Positions 48,435-61,690 of a DNA stretch of 64,000 nt are shown here, piece after piece. Both the position numbers and the translations under genes were made by a program. This stretch comes from a bacterium 1XD21-70. GTDB taxonomy: Bacteria > Bacillota > Clostridia > Lachnospirales > Lachnospiraceae. How positions within the stretch are numbered: the stretch's first letter is position 1; every line of letters begins with the position of its first letter. A model generated the notes under the pieces. The model ran no database searches. It worked only from the letters and a program-made list of their open reading frames with translations, and was not told where the DNA came from. The stretch covers positions 186,001 through 250,000 of the forward strand of contig RAYB01000002.1 in assembly GCA_003669055.1 (NCBI GenBank). The letters are read 5' to 3'.

Positions 48435-49997
48435 CTATACTTTCCATTCATCATCAAACTCCATTAAAAATACCGGAAAACTTTTCTTATCATCCTCGTC
48501 TTCTCCACGCTTTAATTCTTCAATATGAACCGCCATAGTAAGATCAATCAACCACTCTCTTACTATTTCCAATAACTCCATGGTATATTGTAATAAACCG
48601 TTCTCCGTTATATGGTAAAATGAATCCTCCCCTATGCTCTTCTCTTCCTTCTTATCATTATATAAAATCCCACTATGAACTTTTACAAATTTGTGCTCCA
48701 ATGCATTCCGCAAGACTTGTATATTTTTTTCATAAGGAGTATCCGCATCACCAAATTTTTTATTAAACTCACTGCAAATCCAAAACATAGATTTCAACGC
48801 TATATTATCAGCCAGAATCAACCTATTTTTATACTTGTAATTCTTCTTCCCTTTCCCATATTCAGATAACCATATTGTCCGATAATTCAAGTCTCTCTCT
48901 TGAATTCCAAGCTCCCAGTAATCATTTATAAAAAAAGCAACTTTATCAAAAATGGAATATGACTGCCGAAATGCAGTTTTTAATCCTTCGATTCGTATCG
49001 AATACTGCGGATAATCAAACAAATTTATCAAATGCGTTTCCTTATCTGCAAAATGAGTTTCTTCACGCTCATAAAAGGCCTCATAGCACAAGTATCTGGC
49101 ATATATATATTCTTGCTTTAATTGGTTAAACATTCCAAAATATCTTGGCGGTTCTATCTGCTCTATATGTGTAATCATATCTGGTAGTTGCAAAGAATCT
49201 GTAGCAAAACAAGACAATTCATGCGGAAGATCATTTAAAGAATTTAAAAACAAATGATGATGTAAACACCATCTGCGATATGCCTCTTCCTGTTTTTCTC
49301 CTAAAGAATATTCTGATATTTCTAATTTGTTTTCCAAAAATGTTTCCTTAATTTCATCAGTATAAGAATTCACACATCTTTCAAAATATTTTCTGGCAGA
49401 CACATGGACATCTGCCTTTTTTAAAGAGGATTTTAAATAATTATATGCAAAATGATGTAAGTATGCCGTATGACCAGGATCATGTACAAGTGCTGAATAA
49501 TGCTGCAATGCACGCCCCATGTTACCTTCTGCCATCCCAAATTCGGGATTAATTTCTAAAACTTTACGATAAAATTTCATAGCCGCTGCTTTTCTGCCGC
49601 AATCCTCCAATGCATTTGCATAGTTAGTGTACAGCTGTAATTTCAATCCTCTTATATAAGGTTCAAATTCTTCCTTCAATAATTCCGGATTGTCCAAAAG
49701 TTCAAGGCAATGTCTAAAACAGTATAATTCGTGCTCCAATGAAACATCTTTTTTTTCTAAAGATAACTCTGCTTCATCACTTTCGACTGAATATCCATGT
49801 GTCCTTAAATTTCCATAAGAAGTTCCCATACAATAGTATAAAGGAGCATATATTGCATCTGCATGTTTTTTCAAAAAGTCCTCTAATTCGGACAAAAGTT
49901 CCCTTATAGCCTGAACATCATTATTATCACTGGCCACATCAAAACGTTGGGCATATTCTTCACATAACTTTGGAAATGGATTAACAAAATCTTTCAT
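48435..49997 (-). CDS. TPR plus LA2681-like HEPN domain protein (defence-type)
   Basis: 520 residues, AT-rich. The N-terminal half has tetratricopeptide-like helices (LQLYTNYANALEDCGRKAAAMKFYRKVLEINPEFGMAEGNMGRAL near 140-185). The C-terminal region resembles the LA2681-like HEPN family; it contains VLRNALEHKF, the R-N-x3-H motif of HEPN ribonucleases. HEPN proteins cleave RNA in abortive infection and toxin systems. The two following genes also look like defence components. The family call is by pattern; nuclease activity is inferred. Confidence 0.72.
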   Translation of the reverse strand: MKDFVNPFPKLCEEYAQRFDVASDNNDVQAIRELLSELEDFLKKHADAIYAPLYYCMGTSYGNLRTHGYSVESDEAELSLEKKDVSLEHELYCFRHCLELLDNPELLKEEFEPYIRGLKLQLYTNYANALEDCGRKAAAMKFYRKVLEINPEFGMAEGNMGRALQHYSALVHDPGHTAYLHHFAYNYLKSSLKKADVHVSARKYFERCVNSYTDEIKETFLENKLEISEYSLGEKQEEAYRRWCLHHHLFLNSLNDLPHELSCFATDSLQLPDMITHIEQIEPPRYFGMFNQLKQEYIYARYLCYEAFYEREETHFADKETHLINLFDYPQYSIRIEGLKTAFRQSYSIFDKVAFFINDYWELGIQERDLNYRTIWLSEYGKGKKNYKYKNRLILADNIALKSMFWICSEFNKKFGDADTPYEKNIQVLRNALEHKFVKVHSGILYNDKKEEKSIGEDSFYHITENGLLQYTMELLEIVREWLIDLTMAVHIEELKRGEDEDDKKSFPVFLMEFDDEWKV

Positions 49998-50141
49998 TCT
50001 TCATACCTTTCAATGTATACTACTACTTAACGGTTACCCACAAAGTAACACCGCTAAAACATTCCTGATTATTCCATAAATTATTCTGCTTCATTCATTT
50101 TCACATCGTAACGTTTAAGTCATAAGATATATTACATAAAG

Positions 50142-51503
50142 CTACTGATTAACAAAATCAAAAATTTCTTTTTCTCTAATCAAATCAATACGCATTATCT
50201 TGTCTATTTTTTCCGTTCTCTTTCCAACCTCTCTTTTTGCTTCTTGTAATAAATATTCATCTGTAAGATATTGCGACCGAAGATAATGAACATTCCTAAT
50301 AGATTGATCCCTCTCCATTTTTACCCATATGCAGACCAAACAATCCCTATTGAAATCAACTTTTATCTTTTCTGATTCATCCAAACTATAGTATTCCATA
50401 GGCGAAAAATCATTGTACTGCCGCGAATACTCATCGATTAGTATATGAAATCCTTGTTGTAGCATTTTAGAAAAATTCAGTCTGCATACAATCGGATATG
50501 TATTGCTTGTATGTACTAATATGTTCCCCTGCCAGAAAAATTGCGTAACAGATGTATCTTCAAAACATTGAATATCTAATTTATTCTTTGCAAATGGATT
50601 ATGAAAAAGAAATAATCCGTCTGTCAACATTTCCGGAGAGTCTATTCCCACATGATGCAACTTATAGGGCATTTTTGTATCTTCATAATCTCGTCTCAAA
50701 TTATAAACCTCATTCATTGAAAAATACCCTTCTGATTTCGCCAAAGAAGTTAATTTCCCAAGTGTAGTTGTGCATGAATACAAAATTGCAGAAATTCCAC
50801 TGTACTTGTCAGAATTAAACAAACCTACTGGTATTGTCGAATCCGTTTCTGGTTTCTGCACCTCACTCACTGAAACATAACTGTTTTCTTCTGGCACATA
50901 GTACATCCCGTATAGCAGTGTCATCATCGGATATATAAATTCACGCCCGTAATTCACCTGGCTATAGGAAGACATTGCAATCACAAATGGTACATCTGCT
51001 TTAACCCAATCACACTTTGAATACTCATTCTCATATTTTTTCATTTTAGAGGTTATTGCATTCGACTGCCTTACAACAGCCTCATGCTGAATTTGAAAAA
51101 AATCCTCTTGATTCTTTGGTGGAATAAACATATCCATCAAATCTTCCATCCCTCTATCCGATTCTGGTCTGCCCTGACTTTTTATATTTGCAACTACAGC
51201 TTCTACATTAAATTCATAAGGAGCCTTTATCATAAAATCAGGTCTGTTATGAGTTTGGTCTAAGACAAATCCTGCTTCTCTAAAACAAGCATAGAGATAA
51301 AATTCCCAAAAACTTGCATGAAAAGTTTTCTGGAATTCTTGCACCATTTTATTATCTCTATCTACTAAGCCTTCTACCCAACGTTGAAGAATTATTCTTT
51401 CTCCCTCCCCGTATGGGTCTTCTTTTAGCAGCTTGAACTTTGTATGCCATTGATCTTCACTAACCTTTTTCAATGGTTCAAACAAATCCATATTATTTTT
51501 CAC
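50142..51503 (-). CDS. Uncharacterised protein with a PD-(D/E)XK-like nuclease core
   Basis: 453 residues, GTG start with GGAG. Around residues 70-110 is FHASFWEFYLYACFREAGFVLDQ...NRPDFMIKAPYEFNVEAVVANI. A conserved Glu in the first helix, Asp in PDF and Glu in VEA match the order of a restriction-endonuclease fold, with the usual Lys replaced by Val (E-x-V), as in some divergent members. The rest shows no known domain. It lies between the HEPN and Schlafen genes with similar composition, so a joint phage-defence role is plausible but unproven. Confidence 0.55.
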   Translation of the reverse strand: MKNNMDLFEPLKKVSEDQWHTKFKLLKEDPYGEGERIILQRWVEGLVDRDNKMVQEFQKTFHASFWEFYLYACFREAGFVLDQTHNRPDFMIKAPYEFNVEAVVANIKSQGRPESDRGMEDLMDMFIPPKNQEDFFQIQHEAVVRQSNAITSKMKKYENEYSKCDWVKADVPFVIAMSSYSQVNYGREFIYPMMTLLYGMYYVPEENSYVSVSEVQKPETDSTIPVGLFNSDKYSGISAILYSCTTTLGKLTSLAKSEGYFSMNEVYNLRRDYEDTKMPYKLHHVGIDSPEMLTDGLFLFHNPFAKNKLDIQCFEDTSVTQFFWQGNILVHTSNTYPIVCRLNFSKMLQQGFHILIDEYSRQYNDFSPMEYYSLDESEKIKVDFNRDCLVCIWVKMERDQSIRNVHYLRSQYLTDEYLLQEAKREVGKRTEKIDKIMRIDLIREKEIFDFVNQ

Positions 51504-51562
51504 TTCCTCACTCCAAAAATTATGCTTTGTCTACCCTATGGTATCTGCCAGATTACATAAAT

Positions 51563-52375
51563 TTATTTCAGATCTAACACACTCTCTATTTTGATTTTTT
51601 TCTTTTTAATCATGTTAGCAACAAATTCTTCAAAATCTTCTTCTGGGTAAAATGGGTTTTTCGTTCTTTCTACCTCTCCCAGACTTTCAGAAATTGACTG
51701 GAATCTTTCCAACAACGCTTGTCCAACATTCAAAATATTTTTATGTATCACATTTTCTTTTGCACCTACATATTCATATAAAACTTTTAATTGTTCCAAA
51801 TGTTCTTCTAATGCTAATTTAGAACCTTCTGCATACATGGATCTGATTTTTTTATCAATCAGTTCACTTAGTTCAAAGGAATTTGCCTTAACTGTTTTAG
51901 TTCCTTTTCTTATAAAAACACATCCCACTTGATTTTCATTACTATCTCTATCCCACATATAGGGCAGATCTTTATCATCTGAATAGATTACTATCATCTG
52001 ATACATCTTATTCTCTATTTTAGAGTATGCTTCTCCAGAAAAATCGAAATCTAAAATATTAAATTTAACTGTATTCGGCAAAAACTTTGAAATTTTTGAG
52101 TGTTGTTTTTCCTTATCAACTATTTCTTCTAATCCTATGGCCTCTATTGTACCATCCTCTTTTTCCTCAACTCCAAAGATTACCACACCTCCGCCTGTAT
52201 TAGCCATGCCCAAAATAATTTCCGATAATTTCTGTGGCTCTATCCATATCTTTTTAAAATCTATACTATCTTGTTCACCAACTCCATCAAAAACAAGATC
52301 AATAAACTTTTCCCTTGTTGAATCCTGCAAAAACCTATACATATATTCCTTTATATCAAGCATTTTCTCTGACAT
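51563..52375 (-). CDS. Schlafen AlbA_2 domain ATP-binding-type protein
   Basis: 270 residues. The central block DFKKIWIEPQKLSEIILGMANTGGGVVIFGVEE and VFIRKGTKTVKAN are the AlbA_2 (PF04326) signatures, including the Gly-rich loop and acidic residues. These domains occur in transcription regulators, phage-defence proteins and Schlafen-type tRNA nucleases. The C-terminal 90 residues are helical. It is the first gene of the three-gene AT-rich group. AGGG precedes the ATG. Lack of a helicase or winged-helix partner domain makes the exact role unclear. Confidence 0.78.
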   Translation of the reverse strand: MSEKMLDIKEYMYRFLQDSTREKFIDLVFDGVGEQDSIDFKKIWIEPQKLSEIILGMANTGGGVVIFGVEEKEDGTIEAIGLEEIVDKEKQHSKISKFLPNTVKFNILDFDFSGEAYSKIENKMYQMIVIYSDDKDLPYMWDRDSNENQVGCVFIRKGTKTVKANSFELSELIDKKIRSMYAEGSKLALEEHLEQLKVLYEYVGAKENVIHKNILNVGQALLERFQSISESLGEVERTKNPFYPEEDFEEFVANMIKKKKIKIESVLDLK

Positions 52376-52646: not shown

Positions 52647-53498
52647 TCATAGACCGTAAAGACGTTTGAGGATTTCCTCATCACTGACGGTATAATTGAC
52701 AGGCTCCGCTTCAAGGAAAGGATCAGAAGCCATTGCCTCCGTGATTGCTTTTCTTTTCGCTTCTGTATCTGCATATGCGTAAATCAGCGTGGTTTCAAGC
52801 TGTTTGTGTCCGAGCCATTGCGAGATTAAAGTTAAATCCATGCCGTGCTGGTATAAATGCATGGCCCTCGTATGTCTCCACAAATGGGGGTGGACATTCA
52901 GGGGGACATCCGGGCATTTCTCCCTTGCAGATGCGGCGTATTTCTGAATCCGGAGCCTTGCCGTATCATCGCACATGGCGTTACGGATTCCTTTGCGTTC
53001 CACATAAAAGAGCCATTCTGATGACATCCATGTTTCGCCCGGATGGAACACCTTCATATAATTCTGCAGATGTTTTACAGTATCTTTCATCAAGGGGACT
53101 ATCCTGTTTTTCTTCCCTTTCCCATGAAGCGTCACAGTCGGCGTCCTGTCAACTTTAACGTCGCAGATTTTCACATCCAGAACTTCCTGGATACGCGCCC
53201 CGGTATCATACAGAAAGATCATCAGGAACTGATCCTGCACGCCGATCTCCGTTCCGGTGTCCGGCTCTGCAAGAAGTGAGATTTCATTTCTGGACAGCCG
53301 TTCCTTCTGGAACCCTACATATTCACTTGTGATTTCGGGATCATAGAGGGAGATGCCCTTTTTGCCATAGTAGATTGCAAATGCCCTCAGCCCCGGCTGG
53401 ATGTTTGTCCATATGCTGGATTCACTGTAGCCGAGCCTCCTGGCTTCCGCAACCATCCGGGCAATCATTTCGTTGATGGTTATTTCCTTTTCATTCAT
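52647..53498 (-). CDS. Tyrosine recombinase, RIT/trio-like, with shortened middle
   Basis: About 283 residues. Catalytic residues are present in order: Arg in YDTGARIQEV, Lys in HGKGKKNRI, His-x-x-Arg in HPHLWRHTRAMHL, His in WLGHKQLETT and Tyr in IYAYAD. The C-terminal half is like recombinases found as three adjacent genes in gut Firmicutes elements. The N-terminal SAM-like region runs straight from KERLSRNEIS into the catalytic domain, shorter than expected, as if two genes had fused by deletion. ATG 53498 follows GGAGG. It probably acts on the flanking inverted repeats. Confidence 0.82.
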   Translation of the reverse strand: MNEKEITINEMIARMVAEARRLGYSESSIWTNIQPGLRAFAIYYGKKGISLYDPEITSEYVGFQKERLSRNEISLLAEPDTGTEIGVQDQFLMIFLYDTGARIQEVLDVKICDVKVDRTPTVTLHGKGKKNRIVPLMKDTVKHLQNYMKVFHPGETWMSSEWLFYVERKGIRNAMCDDTARLRIQKYAASAREKCPDVPLNVHPHLWRHTRAMHLYQHGMDLTLISQWLGHKQLETTLIYAYADTEAKRKAITEAMASDPFLEAEPVNYTVSDEEILKRLYGL

Positions 53499-53578
53499 GG
53501 CAGATGCCTCCTTGGGTATAGTCAGGGAAATCCCTGCTGACACCATTATCTGCAAATGCCGTTATGAGTGCTATAAAA

Positions 53579-53656: not shown

Positions 53657-55438
53657 TTAAGAGTCTTTATGCTTGTAATAATGGATTAAATGATCCAGTG
53701 CTTTGTGTGTTTTGAGGTGACGAAACCAATTGTAATTGGCTGTTATTATATTAGACATAATAATAACAACTTTATCATTGTTTTTCAACCGATACTCGAC
53801 TCCGACATGTTTTTTACTATCATTGACAATAGCATAGTCAAAGTGCAGTCCCATTTCTGAATGTACAAAAAATGCGTAATCTAAAACCGTACTTCCTTCT
53901 TCCATTTCTGCAACAGATCCATCCTTAGTAACAATTCTAATCAATTCTCCATTTATATTATGGAAGTAGTTTTTTCTAAAAAATTTTACCAGATAATTTC
54001 TTGCCAAGTTACTATTAATAAATCGAAACCATCCAATATCAGCCGTATAACCATTACTGGTTTTAATATCTACTGTATCACCATAATTAAGAAGAGTGTT
54101 GGCAGGAAGATGAGCGGAATTATGATTAAGAATTGCATAAGCAAACTTTAGGCCAATATCCTCATGAATAAGAAAAGCAAAATCTAAAACAGTTGTACCA
54201 TTATCAACAAATTGGGGATGACCATCTTTGCGAAAAACTTTTATTCTATCCCGATGATCCTGATAAGTGAAATTTGTACGTATGTCATCATTATTAACGA
54301 TATTTCCATACATATATTGCAAATGTTCCTTTTCGGTCTTTATAAAAACACGATAAAGATTTTTCATTTTATCGCTTATCAAAAAATAGCAAGAATCTTT
54401 TTTTGTGGTATGATAATATCCGTACACTGTTACACCATCATATTGTAAATATTTTTCATAATAGCATAAAAACAAATCGGCACTAGATTTGCCCGAATCT
54501 GCTTGGAAGTTATCCATAACAACTAAAGTCAGGTTATGAAAGGCCGTCCGATGAACATCCTTAAGTTTTTTCCAATCATCTTTTTGCGAAGAATCATGAC
54601 GAGTAATATACCTATGTAAACTAATGACGGAACGTTCGGAATCAAGGAACTGTTTTATATATTTTTCATATTCGTATATATCGTTTTTTTTCGATAAATG
54701 CGGGGATGCATCTTTGGAAGTAGGCAGCAATGATTTGTTGCTGTTATAAAAAATCTTTTCCAATTTGTTTATAAATTGTCTTTTATAAAAACAATTTCGA
54801 CTATTCAATTCATGAACAACAGAACTGATTTTATAATAACCATGAGGGTTTTCGATTTGCAAGCACAATTCTTCCAAAATATCGGAAATACGATATGCAT
54901 GAATTTCTTTTACACGCGGAATTAGCAATTTTCTAGTTTGACGTGCAAGTTCATATTTAGTACCATCTTGAATTTCAGACAATAAACAGATTCTTTTTGC
55001 AATAAAAATGTAGAAAGCTGATGAATGTGTACTTTGCAAAAGTGATAATAAAGTATCCAAATTGGTAGCCGTATCATTTATTTCATAGTATTGGAATTGA
55101 TTATATATGGATAAATAATCTGCTAATATACTATATATTATTTCCCCAAAAGAGGTCTTAATCGTTGACAATAAGCTGGAATTATAGACAGGGATTTCAT
55201 GAAGCAGGGATGCCAAAACAACGGAACTATCAAATTGCCATGATGCAATAAAATGCGCAACCGCCATTGAATGATTCAAACGATCATTTTCATTATATTC
55301 ATTAGTAACTGACTGAAAAAAAGTCTCTTGGGCGTATTTATAAGCATCCTGTAATCTTTTAATTTCGAATTTATTTATAAGATGTGTTTCCTCAATATAG
55401 TTTATAATTTGTTGGAGAGTCTTCGGAATCTGTATCAT
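53657..55438 (-). CDS. RelA/SpoT-like protein with degenerate catalytic domains and two TGS domains
   Basis: 593 residues. Residues about 50-110 align by eye with the SpoT hydrolase: RLNHSMAVAHFIASW and LASLLHEIP, where HE replaces the catalytic HD and the following EDT is missing. The middle lacks recognisable (p)ppGpp synthetase motifs. Then come two TGS units, each followed by the W.RF/W.RH helix found after TGS in RSH proteins: GTTVLDFAFLIHEDIG...NYGDTVDIKT and GSTVLDYAFFVHSEMG...KNNDKVVI. Probably a sensor or regulator, not an active alarmone enzyme. It overlaps the XRE gene by 47 bases. Confidence 0.8.
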   Translation of the reverse strand: MIQIPKTLQQIINYIEETHLINKFEIKRLQDAYKYAQETFFQSVTNEYNENDRLNHSMAVAHFIASWQFDSSVVLASLLHEIPVYNSSLLSTIKTSFGEIIYSILADYLSIYNQFQYYEINDTATNLDTLLSLLQSTHSSAFYIFIAKRICLLSEIQDGTKYELARQTRKLLIPRVKEIHAYRISDILEELCLQIENPHGYYKISSVVHELNSRNCFYKRQFINKLEKIFYNSNKSLLPTSKDASPHLSKKNDIYEYEKYIKQFLDSERSVISLHRYITRHDSSQKDDWKKLKDVHRTAFHNLTLVVMDNFQADSGKSSADLFLCYYEKYLQYDGVTVYGYYHTTKKDSCYFLISDKMKNLYRVFIKTEKEHLQYMYGNIVNNDDIRTNFTYQDHRDRIKVFRKDGHPQFVDNGTTVLDFAFLIHEDIGLKFAYAILNHNSAHLPANTLLNYGDTVDIKTSNGYTADIGWFRFINSNLARNYLVKFFRKNYFHNINGELIRIVTKDGSVAEMEEGSTVLDYAFFVHSEMGLHFDYAIVNDSKKHVGVEYRLKNNDKVVIIMSNIITANYNWFRHLKTHKALDHLIHYYKHKDS

Positions 55439-56564
55439 GTATTTCCTCCTTCAATTGTCGTTGATATGTTTCAGAGTCCTTTAATAAATGATACCAAATA
55501 TCATCATCTTCTCGTGTAACTCGACCGAAACACAAAATATTCCGTCGGAGAACATCTTCAATTAATGATTTTAGATATGATTTTATTATAATTTCAATAT
55601 TTTCTTCTGTTAAATGTAAGGGATCACTATCTGGCAAAGAATTATTTTGCCCATAAGTATTCCTTATGAAATCTACCAATTTTTCTTCCTCTGGTAAAGA
55701 GTTTTTATCTTGCTGCAAGACAGAAAAACGTAATGTTGTTTTAATTTGTTCTGTACCCAAATATGATGCTGGGTTTCTTGATAATGCAATTAATTGCACA
55801 ATTGGATCAGAGTAATTTCCGCCAGAAACAGAATTAATTGTTCCTAGACCACCAAAATACAAATTACTAATATCAGCATGGTGCAGAATGATCATAAGGC
55901 TATCCCGGCTAGCAGTATAACGATCTAACTGAATAAATATGTTATCATGAGAAATATTTAGTTTGCCTGTGTATAATTTATTAGAAGAAGTATTTTGTAT
56001 CAGTTTATATATTTGCATATAGTTTTCGAGAAGATTAAATTTTTCATATAATTCTATAGCATCTGTTTCTTCAGAAAGTCCCAACACAGCAATACATTTT
56101 GCTTTTGAGTAACTCTGATCTATTTCATCTGCGCTGATACTTATTACTCCGTATTTTAATTCCGGACTTGATGATGGAGCGCTAATTTCTGTATGTTTAT
56201 TTGCAAAAAGCAAACTTTTCTTGCTTGTATCAAGATAATATATATAGTACGTTCCATAAAATTTATTAATATCAGAATTTGTGAGGATTATCTGTGAACT
56301 TTCATCTGATATAGTAATATGACTTAAATCGTTAAATAGTATTTGGTCAATTGTATATTCTGGAAACCGTTTTTTAAGTTCAATAAGGAAATCCAATATC
56401 CCTGTAATCTTTGGTCCTTTAAGATATCCTGTTAATGTAGACTGCTGAATACCTATCATTTCAGCAAATTCTTTTTGAGTTTGATTTCCAATAAGATACT
56501 TGATGTTATTTTTTATTTTGTCACCAATATTGCTTCTATTGAATTGATCTTCAGACTGATTCAT
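55392..56564 (-). CDS. XRE-family regulator with unknown C-terminal domain
   Basis: 390 residues. An N-terminal helix-turn-helix (IKYLIGNQTQKEFAEMIGIQQSTLTGYLKGPKITGILDFLIEL) is followed by about 300 residues with no domain I recognise. It is translated together with the RSH-like protein. The 620-bp intergenic region to the divergent radical SAM operon has inverted repeats that may be its operators. It likely controls the module. The ribosome site is weak. Confidence 0.75.
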   Translation of the reverse strand: MNQSEDQFNRSNIGDKIKNNIKYLIGNQTQKEFAEMIGIQQSTLTGYLKGPKITGILDFLIELKKRFPEYTIDQILFNDLSHITISDESSQIILTNSDINKFYGTYYIYYLDTSKKSLLFANKHTEISAPSSSPELKYGVISISADEIDQSYSKAKCIAVLGLSEETDAIELYEKFNLLENYMQIYKLIQNTSSNKLYTGKLNISHDNIFIQLDRYTASRDSLMIILHHADISNLYFGGLGTINSVSGGNYSDPIVQLIALSRNPASYLGTEQIKTTLRFSVLQQDKNSLPEEEKLVDFIRNTYGQNNSLPDSDPLHLTEENIEIIIKSYLKSLIEDVLRRNILCFGRVTREDDDIWYHLLKDSETYQRQLKEEIHDTDSEDSPTNYKLY

Positions 56565-57183: not shown

Positions 57184-58080
57184 ATGTCATCATTATCTAT
57201 CATTTGGAATGTCACTAACCGATGTCCGTGGAATTGTGCTTTCTGTGTAATGGATGCGGGTATCAATTGTTCAAGAGCAGAGCTTTCCATGGAGGACAAA
57301 ATGAAAGCAATCAACCATTTAACTGGTATAGATTGCAAAGTAGACCTTTCTGGTGGGGAAGTAATGCTCAATCGCAATGATCACATGCCACTTATTAAAG
57401 CTCTTTCTAAAAAAATAGGAAAAAAACATCTTGGAATTAGCTGTTCAGGTGCTTTTATTGGTCCCCAAGAGGCTGTTTTTCTTGCAGAAAATGTTTCAGG
57501 AGTTGAAATGACAATGGATGCTGTTCCTGATAGAGGCTTTACAAATAGACCAGAGCATTATCATGAGATTGCAGGACAAGCAGCAGACCACCTTAAAAGA
57601 GCCGGAGTTAATGTAGGGCTACAGACGGTAATAACTCGTGAACATTTGAATAATCCATTTATTTTAGATGAACTATATGCATGGATGCATGAGCATCAGA
57701 TTGATGAATGGAGCCTAATCAGATACTTTCCTGCCGGAAGAGGTATCAATTATCCGGAGTTAGAACTTTCTGATGAAGAAAACAGAATTCTGGTTAATTA
57801 TGTGAAGAATTTGTGCGAATGTGGGAACGTCCCTAATCTTGACATTCACTACTTAATGCCAGGATCTGGAAAAGATAGTTATTGTCGTTGTGTGAAGAAA
57901 TCAATTGGAATTCTTCCGGACGGAAGTGTTACTGCATGTTTTTGGGGGTTAGATATTCGAGGAAACATAAAAGACAGTAAATTCTATTTGGGAAATATCC
58001 GTGATGATACGCTTTCAAACATTCTTAAAAGTAATAACGCAAAATATTGGTTTGATTATTGTGGAAAATGTCCGCTTTAA
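57184..58080 (+). CDS. Radical SAM protein with SPASM-like tail (mobile-pair protein A type)
   Basis: 298 residues. The radical SAM motif is CPWNCAFC (C-x3-C-x2-C) near residue 14, with LSGGE near residue 57. The C-terminal cysteine set YCRC, ACFW and YCGKC suggests an auxiliary Fe-S cluster. GAGG/AAGGAGG precedes the ATG. It heads an operon with a second radical SAM enzyme two genes on. NCBI uses the name radical SAM mobile pair protein A for enzymes in such pairs on mobile elements; I assign this from memory. The target is unknown. Confidence 0.78.
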   Translation: MSSLSIIWNVTNRCPWNCAFCVMDAGINCSRAELSMEDKMKAINHLTGIDCKVDLSGGEVMLNRNDHMPLIKALSKKIGKKHLGISCSGAFIGPQEAVFLAENVSGVEMTMDAVPDRGFTNRPEHYHEIAGQAADHLKRAGVNVGLQTVITREHLNNPFILDELYAWMHEHQIDEWSLIRYFPAGRGINYPELELSDEENRILVNYVKNLCECGNVPNLDIHYLMPGSGKDSYCRCVKKSIGILPDGSVTACFWGLDIRGNIKDSKFYLGNIRDDTLSNILKSNNAKYWFDYCGKCPL

Positions 58081-58189
58081 GGAAGTAGAAAGCATTATAA
58101 AAGCGATATTTAGATACAATATCCTAGCCCATAACATGCAATATGCATGTTATGGGTGAGTATCAATTCTTTATAGAAAGGACGTACTT

Positions 58190-59161
58190 ATGTTTTCTAT
58201 CTTTTTTGTTATTCTGAACATTATGTCAGGGTTATTAGAAACAGGTGCTGTAATATTCGGAATGCGTAAATATGGGATTGTTTTTGCACTTATAGCCGCT
58301 TTGTTATATCAAATCGGAAATCTTACGCCTTATCCGTTCAAGTTTTCAAAAAGGGCAAAGATTTGTTTGGTATCAATAAGCATTATTTTAATGATATTTG
58401 GAATTTGGAACCCTTGTTGTGTGATAGTGGCAATTCCCTTTTTTGCATTAAGCTTACAGAGTGTAAGAGAAAAATATAAACTTGAAAATTTGAAATCTTA
58501 TAAAAGAATATTTCGTATGATAGGATTCTTTCTAGGATTTGGGTTCAACGCATTTATTGGAATAGCTGGCAGTCTTATTATTATTTTTGCAATTTGTTTA
58601 TCTAATTCAAATGATAAATCTACGGTGGTCATTCCACATTTTTATCGTTTGCAATGGATTTTGCTTTTTCACGAATTACATTATTTTGTATATTGTTATG
58701 CTGTAATGTTGATAGCATATCAATATAGTGGTGCAGTTGGTGCTACAATGCTATTTTTTCTTAGCTGGATTGCTTATGTATCATCAAGAAAGTTATTTTA
58801 TAAAAACATATCTAATTATAAGAAAGCATTTATTTTTGGTCATTCTATCCTTGTTATTTTATTAGTATTCATCTATTTTATACCTAATATGGTGATAAAA
58901 ATTATATGTTGGCTGTTGACTGGAATTGGTGGTACAACGGAATTCTGCATTGGTGAACTAGAAACAAAGGCGGGACAAAATGCTGCGAACCATAATTGTG
59001 CGGAAAACTATGGTCATATTGGTGGAGTATTAGTAGCTATTTTTATAGTAATAATTACAGAAAACTTATTATCAACTGTATTGATTGCAGGAATATTTGC
59101 AAGTATTGCATTAATATTAATGTTTACGAAAAAGGAGGATATTTTTGATGAAAGTATGTGA
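58190..59161 (+). CDS. Polytopic membrane protein, possibly MFS-like
   Basis: 323 residues with about ten hydrophobic segments, for example MFSIFFVILNIMSGLLETGAVIF and GGVLVAIFIVIITENLLSTVLIAGIFASIALILMF. It is shorter than a full 12-helix transporter and has weak resemblance to MFS proteins (WLLTGIGGTTEFCIGELE). GAAAGGAC precedes the ATG. It overlaps the next gene by 14 bases, so it is coupled to the second radical SAM enzyme and may export or import the module's substrate or product. Confidence 0.65.
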   Translation: MFSIFFVILNIMSGLLETGAVIFGMRKYGIVFALIAALLYQIGNLTPYPFKFSKRAKICLVSISIILMIFGIWNPCCVIVAIPFFALSLQSVREKYKLENLKSYKRIFRMIGFFLGFGFNAFIGIAGSLIIIFAICLSNSNDKSTVVIPHFYRLQWILLFHELHYFVYCYAVMLIAYQYSGAVGATMLFFLSWIAYVSSRKLFYKNISNYKKAFIFGHSILVILLVFIYFIPNMVIKIICWLLTGIGGTTEFCIGELETKAGQNAANHNCAENYGHIGGVLVAIFIVIITENLLSTVLIAGIFASIALILMFTKKEDIFDESM

Positions 59162-59963
59162 AATTGAATGTAAAAGTCTTGTAACAAAGTCAAAACTTCC
59201 AGATGCGGATTATGTTATTAATCCATATGTAGGATGCTGCCATGGCTGTTTATATTGCTATGCTCAGTTTATGTGTCGATTTACTGGACATACGGGTGAA
59301 GCTTGGGGATCATTTATGGATATTAAACGTGGCGGAACAATTCCTAAAAATCTGAAAGAAAAAACTGTTTTATTCGGTTCAGTAACAGACCCTTACAACC
59401 CTCTTGAAAAAAGATATGAAACTACTAGGGATATTTTGACAAGGTTGAAGGAACAAAATACAGGAGCTAATATAGAAATACTAACTAAATCGCCATTGGT
59501 CTTACGAGATTTAGATATCCTTAAAACGTTTCCCAATATACGCGTTGGAATTTCGTTGTCAACTATGGATGAAAGATTTGCAAGATTATCAGAGGTACAT
59601 GCTGCTACACCTCAGGCGAGAATACAAACGGTAAAAACACTTCATGACAATGGGATACCCGTTTATGTATTTATTTCTCCTATTTTTCCGTATCTTTCAG
59701 ATTGGAAGTCAGTTGCATCTGCCGTATTAGATATAGCAGATAATGTGTGCTTTGAAAACCTTAATCTTCGTGCTAATTACAAAAAAGATGTATTGGAGTT
59801 AGTAAGAAAAGAATATCCCGAAATATATCCGGAGTTTTCGGCGCTATATGCTGACAAGAAAAAACTCAGAAAATATTGGGAAGAAATGACATGTGAAATC
59901 GAAGATTTTATGAAAGATCGTACTCACACAATATATTTCTTTCATGAAGAGATCAAAAAATAG
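59148..59963 (+). CDS. SPL-family radical SAM protein (mobile-pair protein B type)
   Basis: 271 residues. The cluster motif is CCHGCLYCYAQF, followed by RFTGHTGEAWGSFMDIK, VTDPYNPLEKRYETTRDIL and EILTKSPLVLRDLDIL, all characteristic of spore-photoproduct-lyase-like radical SAM proteins called radical SAM mobile pair protein B. The start is ATG 59148, behind AAAGGAGG. It is made together with the membrane protein. The activity of this pair is not known; it is presumably oxygen-sensitive and acts on DNA, RNA, a peptide or a small molecule. Confidence 0.82.
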   Translation: MKVCEIECKSLVTKSKLPDADYVINPYVGCCHGCLYCYAQFMCRFTGHTGEAWGSFMDIKRGGTIPKNLKEKTVLFGSVTDPYNPLEKRYETTRDILTRLKEQNTGANIEILTKSPLVLRDLDILKTFPNIRVGISLSTMDERFARLSEVHAATPQARIQTVKTLHDNGIPVYVFISPIFPYLSDWKSVASAVLDIADNVCFENLNLRANYKKDVLELVRKEYPEIYPEFSALYADKKKLRKYWEEMTCEIEDFMKDRTHTIYFFHEEIKK

Positions 59964-59974
59964 TGAGGTAACCC

Positions 59975-61003
59975 ATGAAATTCTTAGGATATGAATTAAC
60001 AGGGCACTTAGTAGCTGCTTCTAGTCCCGCAACAGAATCATTATCAAATGTTAAAGCATGTGCGGCCAATGGCGCTGCTGCAATAATATTAAAATCGGCA
60101 TCATCAACTAGATTGCATGATGAAAAAACCAGACGATGTTATATTGATGAACATGGTTTTTGGGCAGAATCAGGATTTGACCGAGAAATTATGCCACTAG
60201 AACAGGCTTTGTTACTTACAAAACAATCAGTAGAACAGTGTAATATTCCTATTATTCCAAGCGTAACAGAATTGACTCTTGAACCGGATAAATGGCTTGA
60301 AGATTGCCAAACCTTAGAGAAAGCGGGTGCAAGCGCAATTCAATTAGATTTCTTTTATTTTCACAATCTTTTATGTGACAATAGCTTTAATTCAAAGTTT
60401 ATTAGTTTGTTAAAAGAAATTAAACGAAATACAATGATTCCTATTATGCCTAAAATTAGCATCAGTATTCCAGCAGAATTAGCATCTTACTTACTCGTTA
60501 GTGCTGGAATAGAGTATGTATCTTTGTTGGATTCAATACATGTACCGAAACCATACAACTCATACTTATTAGGGGAGAGCCTTTCGTTATTCGGATCATT
60601 TATGTTTCAGATCACAAGACAATATACATATGTATTTGCCAAAACAGACATAAAAATATGCGCAGGCGGCGGTGTAACATCAGCAACACATGTTCAAGAT
60701 CTTATTTTATTAGGTGCATCAGTTGTTCAAATCGCAACGGAAGTGCTGTTGAATGGCTTTTCAAGATTTAACCAAATTGAAAAAGATTTTGCTACGATGG
60801 CACCAGAAGATATGCGTATAACTTCTATAAGAAAAAGGAAGGCATTCTTTTATCCTGAGAATTGTACAAATTGTGGAAAATGTCGTGAACAATGTTTTTG
60901 CTCAGTTGTGCATGAATTAGAGGAGACAAACGAAAAGTGTGAAGGATGTGGTTTATGTGCAAGTATATGTAAAAGTGGGGCTATAAAAATGATTGAAACA
61001 TAG
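59975..61003 (+). CDS. PreA/dihydroorotate-dehydrogenase-like protein with two [4Fe-4S] clusters
   Basis: 342 residues. Residues 1-270 form a flavin TIM barrel like dihydroorotate dehydrogenase (SSPATESLSNVKACAANGAAAIILKSASS; MPKIS; GGGVTSATHVQDLILLGASVVQIATEVL). The strand that carries the NxSCPN catalytic loop in true enzymes reads IQLDFFYFHN, so the chemistry must differ. The C-terminus is a two-cluster ferredoxin: CTNCGKCREQC and CEGCGLCASIC. It could supply electrons to the radical SAM enzymes, which need reduction. GAGG precedes the ATG. Confidence 0.82.
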   Translation: MKFLGYELTGHLVAASSPATESLSNVKACAANGAAAIILKSASSTRLHDEKTRRCYIDEHGFWAESGFDREIMPLEQALLLTKQSVEQCNIPIIPSVTELTLEPDKWLEDCQTLEKAGASAIQLDFFYFHNLLCDNSFNSKFISLLKEIKRNTMIPIMPKISISIPAELASYLLVSAGIEYVSLLDSIHVPKPYNSYLLGESLSLFGSFMFQITRQYTYVFAKTDIKICAGGGVTSATHVQDLILLGASVVQIATEVLLNGFSRFNQIEKDFATMAPEDMRITSIRKRKAFFYPENCTNCGKCREQCFCSVVHELEETNEKCEGCGLCASICKSGAIKMIET

Positions 61004-61265
61004 TAATAAGAGTCAATAAACAACGAAAAATCAAAGGTGGAGGACGAATAACCGTTCTCCATTTCTTATTTCACCCAATGTGGACATAATTTAATTGTTA
61101 AAAACCTTCTATAATTAAATTGAGACAGGAAACTTACCGCAAATCAAATATCAAAAATGAAGAAAGCGTTCCAAACAATCATATGTAGGATGTTAATTTC
61201 TATATATGATATATAGATTTAGATAGCAAGGGAAAATTAATCAAAGATAATAATTTCTATACATT
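61004..61265. other. AT-rich stretch after the radical SAM operon
   Basis: No gene. Apart from the terminator at 61038-61061 it is AT-rich and featureless until the recombinase remnant. Confidence 0.4.
61038..61061 (+). terminator. Terminator of the radical SAM operon
   Basis: TGGAGGACG and CGTTCTCCA form a 9-bp stem (one G-T pair) followed by TTTCTTATTT, 35 bases after the last stop codon. Confidence 0.6.
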
Positions 61266-61336: not shown

Positions 61337-61343
61337 TCTGCTA

Positions 61344-61500
61344 AAGATTATCCCGAAATATTTTCCTTAAGCAGAAGATTTGAGAAAGCTGGTCGTGCAA
61401 ATGTCTAAAAAGTTATCCCGAATATTTCTCTAAGAAATTCCGCTATTGCTGGCTTTCTTTGAAGTATTCGGGATAATCTGACTTTCGGTATAACCAGTAT
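61344..61500. repeat. Right 157-bp inverted repeat of the 9-kb module
   Basis: The inverse of 52483-52639. It contains TTATCCCGAAA at 61348-61358, TTATCCCGAAT at 61413-61423 and the inverse motif at 61466-61476. The outer end AACCAGTAT is shared exactly with the left copy. Outside it begins TACCCCGAATTCGGG, which again resembles the motif. Confidence 0.9.
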
Positions 61501-61690
61501 TACCCCGAATTCGGGACAAAATTCGCAAGCAATGCCTTCTTGTACAGAAGGCTCATTTTCGCAGATTTTCCGTACCCGGAAAACCTGCGAAAACGCTTGT
61601 TGGTGACATGTCCCCAAACCCCTGAGATCGTTACCTGCGGTAACGGCTGCGCACCCTACGGGCGCTGAAAACCGAAAAGAGAAAGAAATC
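61501..61690. other. Right outer flank, element backbone downstream of the relaxase
   Basis: No gene. Composition changes back to GC-rich. It contains a palindrome CCCGAATTCGGG next to the inverted repeat, a stem GCCTTCT/AGAAGGC and several short inverted segments. Confidence 0.4.

Follow-up and report, generated by a model that had tools for sequence, protein, structure and literature searches.

Four same-strand open reading frames (ORFs; g1-g2-g3-g4, 57184-61003, plus strand) encode two radical S-adenosylmethionine (SAM) enzymes, a membrane protein and a flavin/ferredoxin protein in a stretch of 64,000 nucleotides (nt) from the Lachnospiraceae bacterium 1XD21-70 (GenBank assembly GCA_003669055.1, contig RAYB01000002.1, positions 186,001 to 250,000), referred to here as the window. 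The locus raises the question of which of these genes belong together and what kind of compound they might act on. A reading made from the letters alone (the sequence-only reading) had described a membrane protein, a PreA-like protein and two radical SAM enzymes that differ in class, and the ORFs, motifs and domain matches agree with this composition. Two loci (n = 2) indicate that the conserved unit is g1-g2-g3. This trio is tentatively read as a rare set of genes whose products modify and transport a small hydroxylated metabolite of the sugar, cyclitol or oligosaccharide type.

The second locus was found with g1 alone. At E ≤ 1e-25, g1 matched 2 of the 391 genomes searched in the class, namely the window's own and an uncultured Clostridia metagenome-assembled genome (MAG; G397), with the locus on its contig 31 (CALGKJ010000031.1). 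Since this was a single-protein query, the MAG was found independently. A g2 profile returned the same two genomes at E ≤ 1e-5 and none of the 389 others; it had been built from the window and MAG proteins, and its information lies in the 389 misses alone. Identity between the two loci is 43% for g1, 32% for g2 and 48% for g3, and the order g1..g2..g3..TIM barrel is common to the two genomes, which belong to different families. Since order and joint occurrence are shared, the three genes are taken to belong together.

In the MAG, seven genes on the same strand follow each other as g1, an alpha-amylase-family enzyme, g2, a glycogen/starch synthase, a major facilitator superfamily (MFS) protein, g3 and a xylose-isomerase-like TIM barrel. 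Successive genes are spaced by 53, 6, 13, −17, 47 and 17 nt. The alpha-amylase-family enzyme (GH13; Alpha-amylase, 197.1 bits) keeps the GH13 motifs, and the synthase, of the ADP-glucose-type glycogen synthase family GT5, scores 375.2 bits with TIGR02095, above its cut-off of 328.45, and keeps KxGGLGDV. The TIM barrel belongs to AP_endonuc_2 and had no match in the window's genome, in a search whose only positive control was the protein's own source. Genes resembling, by eye, NADH-dehydrogenase/hydrogenase subunits adjoin the locus. Radical SAM genes are found in one unit with sugar-building enzymes in the MAG but not in the window.

The fourth gene behaved differently. No match to g4 was found in the MAG genome, listed as 97% complete, while the same query recovers itself in its own genome. 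Because the MAG gives no match, g4 is regarded as local, and it looks like a fourth gene added outside the conserved unit. The sequence-only reading had made conservation of both neighbours the test of a four-gene unit; the membrane gene does stand beside both radical SAM genes in the MAG, but the PreA-like gene has no match there or elsewhere in that genome. Within the family, g4 matched proteins of 78 of 200 genomes at E ≤ 1e-3, the best match other than itself reaching 40 bits and most of the listed matches covering the ferredoxin end only.

In other genome samples, matches to g1 were found in 1 of 24 genomes of the genus, 1 of 22 genomes of the MAG's family or order (the same 22 genomes twice), 1 of 398 of the phylum and, at E ≤ 1e-14, 9 of 387 of the window's family, where only g1's own match exceeded 100 bits and the next scored 78; these samples overlap, and the counts are not additive. 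A narrow scan of genome contigs with two short patterns gave a single locus, again the MAG contig. Five plasmid records carry g1-like genes at 23-26% identity, and in neither of the two that were viewed is a gene annotated as mobile pair protein B. A Paenibacillus polymyxa plasmid, pSb31l, carries two adjacent genes annotated as radical SAM protein and, after them, one for an AsnC-type regulator (L044:6797-10004). Viral scans with g1 gave no confirmed relative, no relatives of the MAG g1 and no operon-like DNA were found in phages, and neither g2 nor g4 has relatives in the plasmid or viral contig collections.

Protein domains and the mobile pair name

The g1 protein (57184..58080, plus strand, 298 aa) matches PF04055 with 36.9 bits and PF13186 with 32.5 bits, the latter corresponding to a SPASM-family C-terminus. 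It starts directly at the barrel, without an N-terminal leader-binding domain, and the core cysteines are Cys14, Cys18 and Cys21 (CX3CX2C at residue 14). In the auxiliary region, Cys234, Cys252, Cys293 and Cys296 are placed like cluster ligands (C-x17-C-x40-C-x2-C); the MAG homologue has the same number of four (C-x17-C-x39-C-x3-C), and a fifth cysteine of g1, Cys236, is absent from it. A passage of PMC6231123 assigns one auxiliary cluster to Twitch domains and seven cysteines to the SPASM domain. Since the four ligand-like cysteines fit that definition, the C-terminus is, by its cysteine pattern, classed as a Twitch domain with a putative single auxiliary cluster rather than as a seven-cysteine SPASM domain. 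The earlier label "SPASM-like" holds at the level of the family but not of the domain. The predicted structure of g1 has a mean predicted local distance difference test (pLDDT) of 52.5 and a predicted template modelling score of 0.58, with values below 50 in the C-terminal part. In the VIA-align listing for this low-confidence model, BlsE comes first (Z 15.8, root-mean-square deviation 4.1, 259 aligned); the substrate of BlsE is a sugar nucleoside, as given in a passage of PMC3715490.

The membrane protein g2 (58190..59161, plus strand, 323 aa) has 10 predicted hydrophobic segments and no match in Pfam, NCBIfam or, by sequence, the PDB. In the two-sequence alignment with the MAG homologue, the polar motifs HxxHYFxYxY and ENxGHI are conserved.

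The second radical SAM enzyme, g3 (59148..59963, plus strand, 271 aa; the ATG at 59148 was used as the start, while the ORF list has the TTG at 59145), carries CX3CX2C at residue 30 and matches Pfam Radical_SAM with 58.6 bits. It is SPL-like, and its score with the spore photoproduct lyase family TIGR03886 is 22.9 bits against a cut-off of 437.55.

The sequence-only reading had called the two enzymes a "radical SAM mobile pair", a name that did not stand. As a candidate for protein A of the pair (TIGR04471), g1 was rejected: its best BLASTP match to protein A is 14.6 bits (E 2.3), and TIGR04471, with a cut-off of 355 bits and 445 bits for a true protein A, is absent among the best 25 of the 33 NCBIfam families that match g1 at E ≤ 0.01. 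As protein B (TIGR04470), g3 was rejected at 238.2 bits against a cut-off of 410, and the MAG g3 is also below it (270.4 bits). g3 is nevertheless homologous to protein B, with 40% identity to the Selenomonas pSRC6 protein. In a 24-row tree of g3-like proteins (midpoint root; long-branch warning for row L065), the six pair-B rows group together in a starred clade (100/99); the window g3 and the MAG g3 both fall outside it, and no starred set holds the window g3. An intact protein A adjoins five of these six rows and a 30-residue match the remaining one; rows L071 and L075 have weak tblastn matches to protein A (27%). In the three annotated mobile pairs examined, A and B overlap or adjoin, with a MarR-type regulator in two, while here the membrane gene lies between g1 and g3. 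The g1/g3 set is not the annotated mobile pair.

Genes like g3 are common (38 of 152 genomes of the class at E ≤ 1e-25). Nine of their neighbourhoods, taken from the high scorers of the class search rather than at random, were compared: an intact protein A was nearby in two, a 30-residue match in one and neither in the other six; no BLASTP match to g1 or g2 was found in any of the nine, and one held a short ferredoxin-type match to g4. On plasmids, g3 matched 75 records, none of them reaching 60% identity, and most of the best rows are annotated as mobile pair protein B, at about 40%; viral scans with g3 gave no confirmed relative. Searches of the open-licence PubMed Central (PMC) literature found no paper with the phrase "radical SAM mobile pair". 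The nine-locus survey warns against transferring the name by similarity, and the conserved trio is now set apart from a misleading annotation. Two of the related loci deserve mention on their own account. At L083:7004-8007 (G215), the protein A match of 30 residues adjoins a pair-B-type gene, as if protein A had decayed, and at L076:9170-16429 (G320), a g3-like radical SAM gene lies beside genes resembling, by eye, type III CRISPR components.

The g4 protein (59975..61003, plus strand, 342 aa) has a dihydroorotate dehydrogenase/PreA-type barrel followed by two complete CX2CX2CX3C motifs at the C-terminus, which is the layout of PreA. It aligns end to end with Escherichia coli PreA (b2147) at 21% identity, but scores 27.8 bits with the PreA family NF006183 against a cut-off of 335. 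Its best NCBIfam match is NF005741, with 99.1 bits over residues 2-276 and a cut-off of 303. The two [4Fe-4S] sites of the sequence-only reading are seen as complete motifs; the claimed loss of the catalytic loop corresponds to a gap in one pairwise alignment where PreA has "SCPQ", a segment that we take to be that loop. No relevant open-licence PMC paper on a radical SAM enzyme with dihydropyrimidine dehydrogenase was found, as judged by title.

Candidate substrate and competing explanations

A carbohydrate substrate is suggested because the MAG trio is interleaved with starch-type enzymes. In the proposed scheme, g1 with SAM would remove a hydrogen atom from a substrate carbon, and the electron left behind could pass to the single auxiliary cluster of g1, on the model put forward for alcohol dehydrogenation by BtrN-type enzymes. 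Such a BtrN-like oxidation is compatible with the Twitch architecture, and g1 would then resemble those Twitch enzymes whose oxidation substrates are sugars or cyclitols. The compound would undergo a further radical reaction by g3 (a rearrangement, an elimination or an epimerisation), and g2 would carry the compound or its carrier across the membrane, or hold the compound there. In the window host only, g4 might provide electrons to the radical enzymes or reduce an intermediate with its flavin. In the MAG, a different TIM-barrel enzyme occupies that position, and the glycogen synthase would build, and the alpha-amylase-family enzyme cut, an alpha-glucan scaffold. Substrate class, reactions, transport and electron flow are all what we infer.

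Taken further, the two loci could belong to a new class of bacterial secondary metabolite. This would be an oligosaccharide or pseudo-sugar derived from alpha-glucan (for example a starch-enzyme inhibitor or a signal), which the synthase builds, the amylase-type enzyme trims and the two radical SAM enzymes modify before its export, with the trio as a shared chemistry core moved between Clostridia families with different partners. This extension is unlikely. Strict four-term conjunctions found no open-licence PMC paper that joins radical SAM to glycogen synthase, acarbose or an alpha-glucosidase inhibitor, or to spore photoproduct lyase together with sugar. The carbohydrate reading offers sugars, cyclitols and malto-oligosaccharides as a testable substrate class for the two radical SAM enzymes and the membrane family, all of them orphans. 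If this reading is right, natural-product clusters with radical SAM enzymes in Clostridia would also draw on starch-type enzymes as building blocks.

Several observations weigh against the carbohydrate reading. The context is suggested mainly by one neighbour cluster, at one of the two loci, and this cluster may be truncated, as the MAG contig ends about 490 bases past its last gene. Neither a glycosyltransferase nor a glycosidase is encoded in the window operon; the single GlgA-like match of the host genome (35% identity) lies on another contig. In the VIA-align listing of the g1 model, SkfB, PqqE and viperin stand within 1 Z of BlsE; in the Foldseek listing, anSME and viperins lead and BlsE is 17th. 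The top PDB sequence matches of g1 are MoaA and a viperin-like protein, and BtrN is absent from the matches listed in that search and in the two fold listings of the low-confidence model. Comparison of the modelled fold, weak as a guide, does not decide between enzyme types, and sequence networks are described in a passage of PMC6231123 as poor predictors of fold or function in the SPASM/Twitch subfamily. The tree does not resolve the window g3, the MAG g3 and the G320 row, and the tie between the first two is not exclusive (48% identity, against 46% to the G320 protein). The predicted structure of g2 (pLDDT 43) is not usable.

Modification of the envelope or of a glycolipid would employ the trio in another way, with g2 presenting a lipid- or envelope-linked glycan that both radical enzymes modify in place. 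The presence of g2 with g1 in both loci and its conserved polar residues are consistent with such a role; the MAG, however, has a separate MFS protein and starch-type enzymes, and no lipid-carrier glycosyltransferase was recognised among the MAG genes scanned. This explanation is considered rather unlikely.

A nucleotide-analogue or antiviral system on a mobile defence island, with g1 as a viperin-like or other nucleotide-modifying radical SAM enzyme, is improbable. It would account for the weak matches of g1 to prokaryotic viperins (pVip; 35.3 and 33.2 bits) and for the high position of viperins in the fold and PDB lists, and the same low-GC stretch holds PD-T7-5-like (267.6 bits) and LA2681-type HEPN (198.2 bits) genes. 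A remote g1 relative (78 bits; pVip 52.5 bits) also has ThyX and a PRA-PH protein as neighbours, in a row that follows Tn7-like genes. Against these stand the 25 bits of g1 with the NCBIfam viperin family NF038283 (cut-off 180), its Twitch cluster region, and the MAG locus with its starch enzymes and its neighbouring NADH-dehydrogenase/hydrogenase-like genes.

The row of genes in which that remote relative lies (L054:70-11425, G1104) consists of Tn7-like genes (TnsD/TniQ, TniB and a Mu-type transposase), then ThyX, the SPASM-family radical SAM protein, the PRA-PH protein and a caspase-domain protein. It is possibly a nucleotide-linked defence cargo.

Peptides are the substrates of many SPASM/Twitch enzymes according to a passage of PMC6231123, and the fold matches of g1 include SkfB, anSME and SuiB, so g1 might be thought to mature a peptide encoded elsewhere, as in the pathways of ribosomally synthesized and post-translationally modified peptides. 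The missing leader-binding domain of g1 argues against this. In addition, comparison of 69 and 111 small ORFs (20-120 aa) at the two loci gave a best cross-match of 17 aa with E 0.049; no short ORF conserved between them was found, which bears out the earlier remark that no small peptide gene is visible. Peptide maturation is very improbable. A modification or repair system, as the sequence-only reading had proposed, found no support of its own, and the MAG locus points to carbohydrate chemistry. Least probable of all is a chance assembly of mobile cargo without joint function, for which speak the low-GC stretch beside a relaxase gene, the number of only two loci and the many contexts in which the common g3-like genes occur, but which is unlikely for the trio, since a shared order at 43/32/48% identity in two families suggests that the genes were long inherited together or were transferred as one unit; for g4 it may hold.

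Layout and surroundings in the window

The g2 and g3 genes share 14 nt, a gap of 11 nt separates g3 from g4, and g1 and g2 lie 109 nt apart. The g1-g2 gap contains a strong, nearly palindromic RNA hairpin (58121..58163, plus strand), identified by folding against shuffles (−22.8 kcal/mol, z −5.2; 0 of 200 shuffles equally stable), with no U-tract directly after the stem. A terminator-like hairpin, matched by consensus only, follows g4 (61035..61064, plus strand), and terminator-like sites in the region number 8 against a shuffle mean of 2.6. The four genes had been described as co-transcribed and overlapping. The spacing at g2/g3 and g3/g4 and the hairpin after g4 bear this out, but the g1-g2 distance with its hairpin does not, and a single transcript for g1-g4 is likely, judging from spacing. 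Sigma-70-like sites show no excess between 56400 and 61700 (21 against a shuffle mean of 24.9), and Rfam gave 0 matches between 50000 and 64000.

Upstream, an HTH_3-like protein (55392..56564, minus strand; 19.7 bits, under the 23-bit gathering score) is encoded divergently from the operon; that it controls the operon is a guess. Its gene is overlapped by that of a 593-aa protein (53657-55438, minus strand) with HD_4 and two TGS matches in a RelA/SpoT-like layout (TIGR00691, 111.7 bits where 499.2 are needed) and no match to a separate Pfam synthetase domain. Shortly before g1, the minus strand carries a 12/12 sigma-70-like promoter match (57121-57093) and, after it, a 15-pair terminator-like hairpin (57017-56984), and a small RNA of about 100 nt may be encoded there (57121-56984), with no Rfam match.

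GC content per kb is 43-50% at 40-48 kb, 29-40% at 48-61 kb and 55-56% at 62-64 kb. The low-GC stretch at 48-61 kb holds a tyrosine integrase gene (52647-53555) and ends beside the relaxase gene, so mobile DNA probably carries the operon as cargo. The integrase gene adjoins defence-type genes on the minus strand (48435-52375) for an LA2681-like HEPN protein with TPR (198.2 bits), a PD-T7-5-like protein (267.6 bits) and a Schlafen AlbA_2 protein. Ahead of the relaxase gene, direct and inverted TTATCCCGAA-type repeats (61343-61593) are possibly transfer-origin sequences.

Relation to known systems

The radical SAM mobile pair (TIGR04471 with TIGR04470) resembles the window in having two radical SAM genes on seemingly mobile DNA and a protein B homologous to g3, but g1 is not protein A, a membrane gene separates the enzymes and g3 lies outside the pair-B clade. 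Viperins and prokaryotic viperins share weak profile similarity with g1 in the radical SAM core; the score is far below cut-off, and g1 has the Twitch cysteines. For g4, the dihydroorotate dehydrogenase-like proteins of NF005741 (PRK07565) are the closest NCBIfam family, although g4 is below its cut-off and has ferredoxin motifs added at the C-terminus. PreA, the dihydropyrimidine dehydrogenase subunit of E. coli, has the same full-length arrangement of a barrel followed by two [4Fe-4S] motifs; g4, in contrast, is without the SCP segment, and no PreT match was seen for g1, g2 or g3. Finally, the BtrN-type Twitch dehydrogenases of butirosin biosynthesis, while not among the listed sequence or fold matches of g1, have, as a passage of PMC6231123 describes, a Twitch domain in which four cysteines ligate the cluster fully, and share with g1 the combination of a radical SAM core and one four-cysteine auxiliary cluster site.

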